In this document: positions 34,739-54,782 of the stretch, piece by piece
How positions within the stretch are numbered: position 1 is the stretch's first letter
Layout: every line of letters begins with the position of its first letter
Source: Oscillatoriophycideae cyanobacterium NC_groundwater_1537_Pr4_S-0.65um_50_18
Lineage (GTDB): Bacteria > Cyanobacteriota > Cyanobacteriia > Elainellales > Elainellaceae
Assembly (NCBI GenBank): GCA_016208305.1
Contig: JACQYI010000081.1
Coordinates: 62,001 to 126,000 of the forward strand
Length of the DNA: 64,000 nt
Direction: 5' to 3'
Translations under genes and position numbers: made by a program
Notes under the pieces: model-generated
Told to the model about the DNA's origin: nothing
Database searches by the model: none
Seen by the model: only the letters and a program-made list of their open reading frames with translations

Positions 34739-34908
34739 CTAATCTCCAAAATTGAACAATGTGTAGAGAGAAATTTCGGAGAGAAGTCTACCCATACTAA
34801 ACGTAGCGAAACTTTCAATACTTGAAACAAATTCTGCAACCGATACTTATTCTCAACCCCCACTATAGCACTTCAAAAAATAATGGAGGCACGCCTCACA
34901 AATTGGTT

Positions 34909-34946
34909 AGCAATTCTTATTTTGAAACAAAGCCTGAAAAAAGTCC
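34909..34946 (+). mobile_element. solo end of a MITE-like element
   Basis: The 38 bases from 34909 match the right terminus (read inverted) of the MITE at 51597-51703, with about four substitutions and one inserted G. The shared block includes TGAAACAAAGCCT followed by an A6 run. Similarity is lost after about 34946 and no partner end is found nearby, so this is a fragment or diverged copy. It sits in the 370-bp gap before the DUF5996 gene. Confidence 0.6.
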
Positions 34947-34977
34947 GCAGGGCGCAAACTTCCCATACTGAGATCCG

Positions 34978-35045
34978 TAATGAAACCTGCTGCAAATGGG
35001 TGGCGATCGACTGAAAATGTCCAGATCTGTGAAAAGGTTTCATTA
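34978..35045. promoter_or_regulatory. 11-bp inverted repeat upstream of the DUF5996 gene
   Basis: TAATGAAACCT at 34978-34988 is repeated as its exact complement at 35035-35045, 46 bp apart, 62 bp before the start codon at 35108. It could be a pair of operator half-sites or a long-loop hairpin. No protein partner can be named. Confidence 0.35.
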
Positions 35046-50122: not shown

Positions 50123-51481
50123 TTAAGTGGGAGTGAACGTTTTCGTTCGAAAATACTGGCGGTATAGCTCGCAGCTTACAGTTACTTTGTTCTCCAGAGG
50201 GCTGATTAGCCCCATACTATTTAATTGATGAGTAAGGCTTGTTTCTAAATCTGTCAGTTCAAGGGTATTGAGAAGATGATGAAACGCCCGGAACAGATCC
50301 GGCTGTTGTTTGAAAATTGTCAAATGACGCTGTAGGTGATGGTGATAAATTCCTGTGGAGGTTGGAGCTGATGCTAAAAGTTGGCTCAGCGTGTGCTCCT
50401 CCCGACTAAGATGATAGAGAGTCGTATGGATCAGCGCAGGATGTCCCCCAACCATTGCCATCAATTGCTTGGCTGATTCTCCATCGCTCCAGTTGAGACC
50501 GTAGCATTGAGCAAGCTGTTGCACTTGAGCTAACGTAAATCCCGTAAGTTGCGTTGCTAACCCTACATTGAAGGGAGACTGATTCAACTGTAGCGGGACA
50601 TACACTTCTGTAGAGTGGGCGATAACCAACCGCAGGTTCTGCCAGATAGGAACTCGTTTTGCCTCTTCGTACCAGGAACGCAATAGGGGTAGAACATCCT
50701 TAGCAACATGAGGATATTCAAAGATCTGGTTGAGTTCATCTATTGCAAGAACGAGAGGAGTCTTAATCTCCTCTAATAAATGCTGTCGCAGATACAGAGT
50801 ACAGCTTACTTTGCTGCCCATATCATCATCCCAGTAGTCATCTAGTTTTGGTTCGAGTTGAAGCTGATGAGTAATGCTGGCACATAAGCTGCGGAGAAAT
50901 CGATTGAGGTCGGCACAAATGGCTTGATCCATCTGCTCTAAATTCAAGTAAACCGTGCGATATCCTTGTCTCTGAGCATGATCTAGCATACGTAGAAGCA
51001 GCGAAGTTTTGCCCATCTCTCTAGGTGCTTTGACCCGAACCAGTGCACCTGGTTTACAAATTTCGTTGCACACCTGTGATTCGATGGGTGGACGCATAAT
51101 GTAGAACGGGGAATCGATCGCGATCGGCCCACTGGGAAAGGCTGGGGCGAGTGCTTGATTGGCATCGGGGATTGGGAACGCGATAATAGGTTGTTCCTGT
51201 GGCTTCGAATGACAGCAGGATGCAGCATATTCTTCCAGCAGAACGCGACAGTTTTTCTTGGTCAAACGCTGCCCAAGTAGATCTGAAAGTCGATGGAGCA
51301 GTTCAGGTGCAACGACATTGGTTAAATAACCCGGACTATACCCAACTTCTTCTGCAATCTGCATATAGGTTTGATGTTGCCAAATCCCACGCAAAAGTAA
51401 TTTTTCTGCCGGATTGAGCGGACGGTTTTGCCTATCAGCTAACTCGCGGTTAAGACTCTCGAAGAAGGTGTCAACATTCAT
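50123..51481 (-). CDS. vMAP-type HTH plus AAA-like ATPase
   Basis: The N-terminal 85 residues (PLNPAEKLLLRGIWQHQTYMQIAEEVGYS, YLTNVVAPELLHRLSDLLG, in part) match the winged-helix domain that opens vWA-MoxR-associated proteins in cyanobacteria. A 60-residue linker leads to an AAA-like NTPase (P-loop VKAPREMGKTSLLLRML, Walker B LVLAIDELNQIF) with a C-terminal winged-helix tail. Such proteins are predicted NTP-dependent conflict or signalling switches. There is no vWA or MoxR gene in the window. The start is the ATG at 51481. It diverges from a related AAA-CHASE2 gene at 52101 across 619 bp that holds a MITE. Confidence 0.88.
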   Translation of the reverse strand: MNVDTFFESLNRELADRQNRPLNPAEKLLLRGIWQHQTYMQIAEEVGYSPGYLTNVVAPELLHRLSDLLGQRLTKKNCRVLLEEYAASCCHSKPQEQPIIAFPIPDANQALAPAFPSGPIAIDSPFYIMRPPIESQVCNEICKPGALVRVKAPREMGKTSLLLRMLDHAQRQGYRTVYLNLEQMDQAICADLNRFLRSLCASITHQLQLEPKLDDYWDDDMGSKVSCTLYLRQHLLEEIKTPLVLAIDELNQIFEYPHVAKDVLPLLRSWYEEAKRVPIWQNLRLVIAHSTEVYVPLQLNQSPFNVGLATQLTGFTLAQVQQLAQCYGLNWSDGESAKQLMAMVGGHPALIHTTLYHLSREEHTLSQLLASAPTSTGIYHHHLQRHLTIFKQQPDLFRAFHHLLNTLELTDLETSLTHQLNSMGLISPLENKVTVSCELYRQYFRTKTFTPT

Positions 51482-51587
51482 GAGAATGGGTACGCGGGGG
51501 TAGAGGACTTTAGAGAAATTTTAGAGCACAGTATGGGGTTTCCACGGGATATTTTATGCCAATTGTCTGGATAGTTCTAGTTCACCA

Positions 51588-51712
51588 GCAATAAAATAGC
51601 AATTCTCATTATGGATTCTATAGGGGGAATGCTCGCCCTGAAGCCCAAAAAAGCCTGCCGCAGGTGGGCTTTTTTAGGCTTTGTTTCACAATGAGAAGTG
51701 CTGGCAATAAAA
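51588..51712. mobile_element. MITE-like element with 9-bp target duplication
   Basis: A 107-bp element (51597-51703) has 17-bp terminal inverted repeats with three mismatches. GCAATAAAA flanks it directly on both sides (51588-51596 and 51704-51712), as a 9-bp target-site duplication would. An internal imperfect hairpin has 19-bp arms (51641-51659 and 51663-51681, three mismatches) around a 3-nt loop. No ORF is inside. A related solo end is at 34909. It has no transposase, so it would move in trans. Confidence 0.75.
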
Positions 51713-51907
51713 TGCTGATTTCAGCCTTTTCATCAAAGCAAATTTCTAATAACTCTTAATAAGATTACTCTGGCAATATTTGAGAATGCATAGAACCCAG
51801 AGATTGCATTGTCAAGGTAACAGAGGGCAAGTTTCGGCCTTTGCCTCAAAAACAATGGATGTATTGCTATGAGATTTAATTGTTATGAGATTTAGGAGTT
51901 GCCTGAT

Positions 51908-52042
51908 ATGGAAATACAATGCTATTCAACGAAAGAGTGGAATTATAACTGGCTTGAAGTGCTGCCTCAGCTCAATCATTCAAAGTTAAGACCGCTTGAC
52001 AATCGAGTTTTTGTGGCAGAAATTTTCGATCGTTATGGATGA
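51908..52042 (+). CDS. possible small protein, 44 aa
   Basis: An ATG at 51908 opens a 44-codon frame ending at 52042, 58 bp before the AAA-CHASE2 gene on the same strand. TAGGAG lies 9 nt before the ATG, a good ribosome-binding site. The composition (several Trp, Tyr and charged residues; KEWNYNWLEVLPQL) looks like a protein but I know no family. If real, it is the first gene of the AAA-CHASE2 operon. Confidence 0.35.
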   Translation: MEIQCYSTKEWNYNWLEVLPQLNHSKLRPLDNRVFVAEIFDRYG

Positions 52043-52100
52043 TCCAGATGCTTCTACCACTTGTTCTTTTAGCCGCACATCAGTATTCTAATTTTTCCGT

Positions 52101-54782
52101 ATGAATCAGTACCAAGTTGGTGGCAGTTTGAGTCAAGATCACCCTTACTATGTGGAACGGCGCGCAGATACTGAGCTTTACCAAGCTTTAAAGAGTGGTC
52201 AATTTTGCTACGTCTTTAATGCCCGCCAGATGGGTAAATCGAGTTTGATGGTGCAGGTGTTGCATCAGTTGCAGCAAGATGGCGTTTGCTGTGGTGCGAT
52301 CGATCTATCTCGGATTGGTAGCGAAACTCTGACACTGGAGCAATGGTACAAAGGATTTGCGGTAGAACTGTGGCAGGCATTTGACTTGTTGGGCAAGGTG
52401 AACCTGAAGCGATGGTGGCAGGAGCGGTTTGATCTGTCTCCGGTGCAGCGACTGGGTCAATTTATTGAAGAAATCCTGCTGGCAGACGTAAAAAACGAAG
52501 AACCATCTCGACGGCAGTTCGTGCTGTTTCTGGATGAAGTAGACAGTATTCGAGGCTTAGATTTCTCGCTGAATGATTTTTTTGGGTTGATTCGTGCCTG
52601 CTATAACCGTCGCAGTTTGCATCCTGAGTATCGGCGGCTCACGTTTGCGCTTTTGGGTGTGGCAACACCGTCTGATCTGATGACCGATCATCAGAGAACG
52701 CCATTTAATATTGGTCGAGCGATCGACTTATGCGGGTTGCAGCAGGCGGATGCTCAACCATTGGCGCAAGGGTTGGTGGGCTATGTTCATGAGCCGTCGC
52801 TTGCCTTGCAGGAAATCTTGATTTGGACAGGGGGCCAGCCCTTCTTGATGCAGAAGGTGTGTCAGTTACTGGTCGAGCACCCCGTTTCGACTCAATCTAT
52901 GACTGATCGCGAGCATATTCATCAGCTAATCCAAAAATACATGATTCAAACCTGGGAATTTCAGGATGAACCAGAGCACTTGCGAACGATTCGCGATCGT
53001 CTGCTAGGTGATCACCAATTCACAGGACAGCTATTAGGCCTTTATCAGCAAATTCTGGATGATGAGGCAGTCGAATTTGATGGGAGCCGCGAACAGGTTG
53101 AACTCTTGCTCTCAGGGCTGGTCACTAATCAGCAGGGGCAGTTAGTCGTAAAGAATCCGATTTACCAAGCCATATTTAACCGAAATTGGGTACGTCACCA
53201 TTTAGCGCAGCTCCGTCCGTATGCCGAATTTCTTGATAGCTGGATTAGCTCTGGTAAAAGCGATGAATCTTATTTGCTGCGCGGACAGACTTTGCAAGAT
53301 GCTCTGACATGGACATTAGGCAAGAGTTTGAGCCATGAAGATTATCAGTTTCTAGGGGCAAGTCAAGATTTGGCGAAACGAGAAGCGCAAACTGCTCTGA
53401 AAGCTGTGGAACAGGCAAGCCAGATGTTAGCGACTGCTCGACAGCGTGCCAGTCGAGAGGTGCAAAAACGCCGCATGGGTTGGCACTGGATGCCGGGCAT
53501 GACGTTGAGTGTTGCAATTCCGGTTCTGCTGTTGCGTGGCTTGGGGTTGCTGCAAGGGCTGGAACTGGATTTGTTTGATCAGTTTGTGCGCTGGCGACCC
53601 CTAGAACCGATCGATCGCCGCATTGTGATTGTTGAAATTGACGAGCAGGATATTACTCAGGTGGGGTATCCAATGCCCGATCGCGTGCTGGCACAAGCAA
53701 TTGAGACTATTCAAACGCAAAAGCCGCAAGTCATAGGGCTGGATATCTATCGCGATTTACCTGTCGAGCCAGGACATTCAGACTTAGTTCGAGTGTTTCA
53801 ATCTACACCGAACCTGATTGGTATAGAGAAAGCAGTGGGTACTCCTGTTGCACCACCGCCAATTCTGGCTGAAAAACAGCAAGTTGGATTTGCCGATCAG
53901 GTGGAGGATGCTGATGGAACGGTGCGTCGGGCATTGTTGTCGGTAGGTGATGAAGATACGGCTCGATATAGTTTAGCGGTACAGCTTGCCCTGTCTTATT
54001 TAGTAACTAAAGGTCTTGCTTTGAAGCAGCTTGATGCAGCGGGGCGACGGTTTGAGCTAGGGAAAGCCATTTTTGAAAAATTTGAGCCGCAAGACGGTGG
54101 CTATATCAACGCTCAAGCCGGACAGAGCTACCAGATCTTGCTAAATTTCCGAGGTTCTGAGGCAAATTTTCTCACGATTCCACTGCGGCAAGTTTTGAAT
54201 CGTCAAATTCCTGCTGACTTGTTCCACGATCGCATTGTTTTGATTGGCTACACTGCGGAGAGCGTTAACGATCGCTTCCGAACTCCTAATAACGGCGGCT
54301 GGTTTAATTCGGCGCAGCCGATCAATGGGGTGACGCTGCACGCCAATATCGTCAGTCAAATCATCAGTGCTGCTTTGGATGGGCGACCCCTCATTCGGGT
54401 CTGGATTGAGCCAGTTGAATGGCTCTGGGTGCTGCTGGGGGCTGGGGTTGGAGCTGCGATAAGTTGGTCATTGCGATCGCCTTTGAAGCTGATCATAGGC
54501 ATTCTGCTTGTGAGCAGTGGATTAGTGGGCGGCGGCTATTTCGCATTGCTAGCTGGCTGGTGGATTCCAGTCGTGCCTTCCCTATTAGGACTGTGGGGAA
54601 CTGCAATCGTGATCATTATCATTACCGACAAACAGCGCGATCGGCTTCAGTTTCAGCGCACGCTTGCTCTACTGTTAGACGCACAGCGAGACTATCCCAC
54701 GGCAGGACGGATTGCGATCGAATACTTGAAGCTATCGGAAACGAAGGAGCATCAGGCACAAATCGATCGACAATTCAATTAA
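52101..54782 (+). CDS. AAA-like NTPase fused to CHASE2 and membrane helices
   Basis: This 893-residue protein starts with a cyanobacterial AAA-like domain (Walker A NARQMGKSSLMVQVL at about 40-55, Walker B FVLFLDEVDSI at about 145). After a linker and a TM at about 470-490 comes a CHASE2 domain (about 495-745: VIVEIDEQDI, VIGLDIYRDLPVEPG, GFADQVEDADGTVRRALL, IVLIGYTAESVNDRFRTP). Three TM helices (about 770-845) and a short helical tail end it. It has no kinase or cyclase output, so the NTPase is probably the output. It faces the vMAP-AAA gene divergently. Its stop is 2 bp from the stop of the convergent exoprotein gene. Confidence 0.9.
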   Translation: MNQYQVGGSLSQDHPYYVERRADTELYQALKSGQFCYVFNARQMGKSSLMVQVLHQLQQDGVCCGAIDLSRIGSETLTLEQWYKGFAVELWQAFDLLGKVNLKRWWQERFDLSPVQRLGQFIEEILLADVKNEEPSRRQFVLFLDEVDSIRGLDFSLNDFFGLIRACYNRRSLHPEYRRLTFALLGVATPSDLMTDHQRTPFNIGRAIDLCGLQQADAQPLAQGLVGYVHEPSLALQEILIWTGGQPFLMQKVCQLLVEHPVSTQSMTDREHIHQLIQKYMIQTWEFQDEPEHLRTIRDRLLGDHQFTGQLLGLYQQILDDEAVEFDGSREQVELLLSGLVTNQQGQLVVKNPIYQAIFNRNWVRHHLAQLRPYAEFLDSWISSGKSDESYLLRGQTLQDALTWTLGKSLSHEDYQFLGASQDLAKREAQTALKAVEQASQMLATARQRASREVQKRRMGWHWMPGMTLSVAIPVLLLRGLGLLQGLELDLFDQFVRWRPLEPIDRRIVIVEIDEQDITQVGYPMPDRVLAQAIETIQTQKPQVIGLDIYRDLPVEPGHSDLVRVFQSTPNLIGIEKAVGTPVAPPPILAEKQQVGFADQVEDADGTVRRALLSVGDEDTARYSLAVQLALSYLVTKGLALKQLDAAGRRFELGKAIFEKFEPQDGGYINAQAGQSYQILLNFRGSEANFLTIPLRQVLNRQIPADLFHDRIVLIGYTAESVNDRFRTPNNGGWFNSAQPINGVTLHANIVSQIISAALDGRPLIRVWIEPVEWLWVLLGAGVGAAISWSLRSPLKLIIGILLVSSGLVGGGYFALLAGWWIPVVPSLLGLWGTAIVIIIITDKQRDRLQFQRTLALLLDAQRDYPTAGRIAIEYLKLSETKEHQAQIDRQFN

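Follow-up and report, generated by a model that had tools for sequence, protein, structure and literature searches.

A 107-bp MITE with a terminator-like hairpin between two divergent AAA_35 genes of a filamentous cyanobacterium, and the type of insertion sequence that may have moved it

The spacer between two divergently read AAA genes in the window (the whole 64,000-nucleotide stretch analysed here) contains a short sequence bounded by inverted and direct repeats, which raises the question of what it is, what brought it there and whether it matters for the two genes. A sequence-only reading had called it a MITE, on the grounds that 17-bp terminal inverted repeats and identical 9-bp flanks show a real insertion, and had proposed that it could alter the promoters of its neighbours or supply a hairpin.

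The interval 51588-51712 corresponds to the element plus both duplications, the element alone being 107 bp long (Table 1). Comparison of the flanks at the locus gave identity at 9/9 positions, a match expected by chance with a probability of about 4e-6. The terminal inverted repeats are imperfect: 14/17 positions pair between 51597-51613 and 51687-51703, and each repeat carries 2 mismatches with respect to the family consensus. The computed direct repeat is 10 bp long, since the left terminal repeat begins with a mutated base, a T, that equals the T following the right copy; the ends of the element were fixed from the family, in which flank matching stops sharply at 9 bp. Of the window ORFs of at least 60 aa, none overlaps the element. 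The insertion is therefore real, as had been claimed, with ends set by the family data. Its placement between two divergently read AAA genes is also correct, both of them carrying an AAA_35 domain.

Table 1. Coordinates of the MITE, its parts, the neighbouring genes and a second copy in the window
Feature	Position	Strand	Remarks
AAA_35-domain gene, 452 aa	50123..51481	-	start 115 bp from element
Target site duplication, left copy	51588..51596		9 bp, GCAATAAAA
MITE, 107 bp, non-coding	51597..51703	+	~131-bp element with an internal deletion
Left terminal inverted repeat	51597..51613	+	TAGCAATTCTCATTATG; consensus CAGCAATTCTCATTTTG
Hairpin 1, 5' arm remnant	51623..51639	+	3' arm deleted in window copy; from alignment A1 and folds
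Hairpin 2	51641..51681	+	near-perfect stem, loop GCA; from folds and covariation
Terminator-like core	51647..51675		AAAAAAGCCTGCC-GCA-GGTGGGCTTTTTT, 13 pairs, A/T tracts on opposite sides
Right terminal inverted repeat	51687..51703	-	
Target site duplication, right copy	51704..51712		9 bp, GCAATAAAA
AAA_35 + CHASE2 gene, 893 aa	52101..54782	+	start 397 bp from element
Second, decayed MITE copy	34908-34992		34899..35001 with duplications CAAATTGGT / CAAATGGGT, 8/9 match

The search for further copies that had been proposed as a check was positive both in the organism's own genome and in relatives. In the former (G000, 6.94 Mb in 85 contigs), searching with the element and with its end sequence recovered about 20 sites with related copies or fragments. 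Many copies are present in a genome of the same genus (G003), and at least 14, typically 132 bp long, in a genome of another genus (G006), where the mean identity over 13 compared copies was 89.5%. We then selected 39 candidate copies by their ends, ignoring the flanks. A perfect 9-bp duplication was found in 20 of the 39, and 34 had no more than 2 mismatches. Over the 39 copies, flank agreement was 79-95% per position from 1 to 9 and dropped to 31%, the background level, at the tenth. The target sequences of the copies show no obvious shared consensus. The decayed copy at 34899-35001 likewise sits in a divergent spacer, according to crude ORF calls. The end sequence had no match in the open full-text literature and no description of the family turned up in the open literature searched; it is a multicopy mobile element of an established type.

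Empty sites, the other comparison suggested for relatives, were searched using joined flanks as queries. Where one G003 copy (L112, duplication TAAATTTGG) sits, the target is uninterrupted and single in the sister species G002: across this junction 219 bp align to 219 bp with 87% identity, a precise empty site. At 4 more G003 sites, G002 likewise lacks the element and aligns across the junction, apart from small indels. As regards the window copy, an orthologous divergent gene pair in G028, which belongs to another genus, carries no element in its spacer, which measures 210 bp against 619 bp here. The exact empty site could not be found in G028, the spacer being too diverged to align the target, and no orthologous spacer of the same genus was available for comparison because conservation of the locus does not extend to G001-G003. 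Both AAA genes (50123-54782) share 78-79% nucleotide identity with their G028 counterparts; a match in another genus together with absence from the three same-genus genomes searched makes horizontal transfer or loss of the pair possible.

The sequence-only reading had left the parent transposase unnamed, several IS families making 9-bp duplications, and had advised a search for insertion sequences with matching ends. One match in the own genome, C48:5309 (L031:5309-5474), adjoins a truncated transposase C-terminus and is a relic of the parent IS that retains one end and the final 47 transposase codons. Using this peptide as a query, intact insertion sequences were identified in genomes of the same family. 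In G026, nine copies of a 1,420-bp IS start with CAGCAATTCTCATTTTG and end with its complement. Perfect 9-bp duplications (GTTTCCCAG, GCTTCGCGC, CCTACTGTC, AAACCTGCC and GCATCCGAA) flank 5 of the 6 copies inspected, and the transposase has 435 aa (446-aa open frame). A Calothrix plasmid carries an intact 1,865-bp IS with the same ends and the 9-bp duplication GAAATATAC, and Nostoc and Microcystis contigs contain elements of 1.87-1.89 kb whose ends and 9-bp duplication length are likewise shared. The duplication length of the MITE thus recurs in the intact elements of Calothrix, Nostoc, Microcystis and Leptolyngbyaceae.

The parent transposase shares 48% identity with a protein that carries the annotation 'ISNCY family transposase', and ISNCY-annotated insertion sequences (WP_013335080.1, on a Gloeothece verrucosa plasmid; Calothrix AP025021.1, annotated 'transposase') have the same terminal repeats as the MITE. 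It scores 21.6 bits against Pfam DDE_Tnp_1, under the cut-off of 23. The curated cut-offs of the IS4 and IS701 families are not reached either (NCBIfam IS701_3, 20.6 bits for a cut-off of 170; IS4_2, 20.5 bits for a cut-off of 152).

Over the 24 terminal bases of the right end, the window copy is 87.5% and the full-length C49 copy 91.7% identical to the Calothrix IS. The ISNCY-annotated elements are 1.4-1.9 kb long with a transposase, whereas the part common to them and the MITE is about 17-24 bp per end. No internal sequence is shared between the MITE and either the 1,420-bp G026 IS or the Calothrix IS; since the ends alone are common, the MITE was classed as end-sharing rather than as a simple deletion derivative. 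From these sequence comparisons, the parent type is an insertion sequence of the DDE kind that shares the ends and the 9-bp duplication length of the MITE, and we infer that this transposase group moved the window MITE. None of G000, G003 and G006 yielded an intact transposase of this group, draft assemblies being liable to lose repeated insertion sequences. The own genome has only relics, at C48:5309 and C26:87041, so the family now looks immobile there. The window element is thus short and gene-less, with terminal inverted repeats, a target duplication and the ends of an autonomous element, and belongs to a family with many copies and an empty site for a sister copy, as expected of a MITE.

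The end sequence CAGCAATTCTCATTTTGAAA is conserved across a range from Leptolyngbyaceae to Nostoc and Microcystis, and also in some non-cyanobacterial MAGs. The same ends with perfect 9-bp duplications were observed at L201, L266 and L272, in MAGs labelled Desulfatirhabdium, Akkermansia and Deltaproteobacteria, which reflects either a wide spread of this end type or mis-binning. A separate observation concerns L090:542-1858 (C26:87041-88357 of the own genome), a 1,317-bp element bounded by both parent-IS ends. It keeps 148 bp of parent-IS sequence on one side and about 60 bp on the other, with the duplication GAGCCTCAA/GTGCCTCAA, and a 283-aa SAM methyltransferase gene replaces most of the transposase. 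Among 35 same-family genomes there was no close homologue, and the element looks like a mobile insertion cassette with a passenger gene.

Full-length copies of the MITE fold into a terminal stem and two near-perfect hairpins, mostly at -72 to -104 kcal/mol. The 125-nt stretch of the window has a folding energy of -49.5 kcal/mol (z -4.8), and none of the shuffles is as good. Its hairpin 2 consists of a GC-rich stem followed by a T run and scores as an intrinsic terminator in a scan of the plus strand. The A tract and the T tract flank the stem on opposite sides, so that a terminator is predicted on both strands; hairpin 2 should therefore be a bidirectional intrinsic terminator, by symmetry in the case of the other strand. 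The hairpin that the element had been proposed to supply is thus real and terminator-like.

Covariation was assessed on 27 copies from three genomes (alignment A1), counting pairs on the hairpin structure; the RNAalifold structure of the mixed alignment is poor, since half of hairpin 1 is missing from several copies. Hairpin pairing is kept across genera: 90.7% of the cells pair, and 22 pairs have both sides changed, compared with 12.3 in shuffles and 3-11 when the structure is slid, no shuffle equalling the observed score. The loop occurs in both orientations within one genome, TTC/GAA in G006 and TGC/GCA in G000 and G003, which suggests that flipping or repair of the palindrome at the DNA level helps to keep complementarity. 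As such processes can maintain pairing, covariation alone does not prove an RNA function. The only Rfam match, a sub-threshold one to Yfr17, was rejected as chance (E 0.48, 19.4 bits for a gathering score of 50).

These elements can be assembled into a mechanism in which we have high confidence: a gene-less MITE was inserted here in trans by an IS transposase and survives as a terminator-like hairpin whose expected effect on its neighbours is small. The transposase would act in trans by recognising ends of ~17-24 bp (CAGCAATTCTCATTTTGAAA...), and a 9-bp staggered cut at insertion would have produced the GCAATAAAA duplication. An internal deletion would have spared the second hairpin of the window copy, with its A-tract/T-tract stem. 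Between divergent genes, such an element would block at most upstream-directed read-through from one gene towards the other.

Could the hairpin instead have been co-opted, and be held by selection as a bidirectional terminator or insulator between the two genes? The survival of a strong A/T-tract stem in an internally deleted copy and the complementarity maintained in different genera would fit such a role, but the complementarity can equally be preserved by palindrome repair acting on the DNA, both loop orientations being what palindrome flipping would leave, and the orthologous G028 pair manages without the element. Moreover, a selected terminator agrees poorly with the distribution of the family: a crude count of gene contexts gave 18 tandem, 9 divergent and 5 convergent sites, showing no enrichment at gene 3' ends and no preference for convergent spacers. 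We therefore regard co-option as unlikely. An altered promoter, the other effect that had been envisaged for the insertion, appears quite improbable. A sigma-70-like match (10/12) does cross the right junction on the plus strand at 51685-51713, pairing a -35 TTCACA from the element with a -10 TAAAAT from the duplication, but promoter-like matches in the region are at chance level (3, for 1.7 +/- 1.6 expected), and the segment conserved with G028 near the plus-strand gene lies far downstream, at about 51886-51930, outside the insertion.

Given this position of the conserved segment and the lack of any gene-end preference, our best guess is a neutral insertion with an insulating effect at most. 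Whatever effect there is on either neighbouring protein is expected to be small, and the insert probably matters little for the two AAA genes. That the sequence is a non-mobile palindromic repeat or an ordinary terminator, flanked by direct repeats by chance, can be practically discounted: the core hairpin by itself does resemble a common terminator, but the common ends, the 9-bp duplications in dozens of copies and the empty site rule this out. The insertion in trans of a gene-less MITE thus remains the preferred reading.

Cyanobacterial MITEs, and the pairing of a MITE with an IS through shared ends, are already established (PMC10969869, PMC11448079). In Microcystis, a 187-bp MITE whose mover is an ISL3-type transposase (PMC11448079) combines a stem-loop with matching IS ends as here; it differs by its ends (GGCTCTTCG), its 8-bp duplications and its IS family. 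Nezha, a cyanobacterial MITE for which ISNpu3-like elements are the proposed mover (as cited in PMC3049150), is non-autonomous and moved in trans like the window MITE and, as far as its description goes, could be identical to it or distinct. SPRITE of Streptococcus pneumoniae, a small interspersed repeat resembling a Rho-independent terminator (PMC3049150), is similar to the window family in this, but its ends are just AAAA/TTTT, with no demonstrated target duplication, and in contrast to the window family it lies near gene 3' ends (PMC3049150).

The window insert is an ordinary genomic parasite, notable chiefly for its strong hairpin. A more speculative and rather doubtful idea is that the family forms a mobile two-palindrome cassette, whose second palindrome would be a portable bidirectional terminator, its base pairing persisting in different genera as sequence and loop orientation change. 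Such a terminator may protect the element, or else its hosts, against read-through and so partly account for the persistence of a family that has no transposase of its own. By its common ends and its duplication length, the MITE family is tied to a transposase group, which makes it recognisable for annotators.
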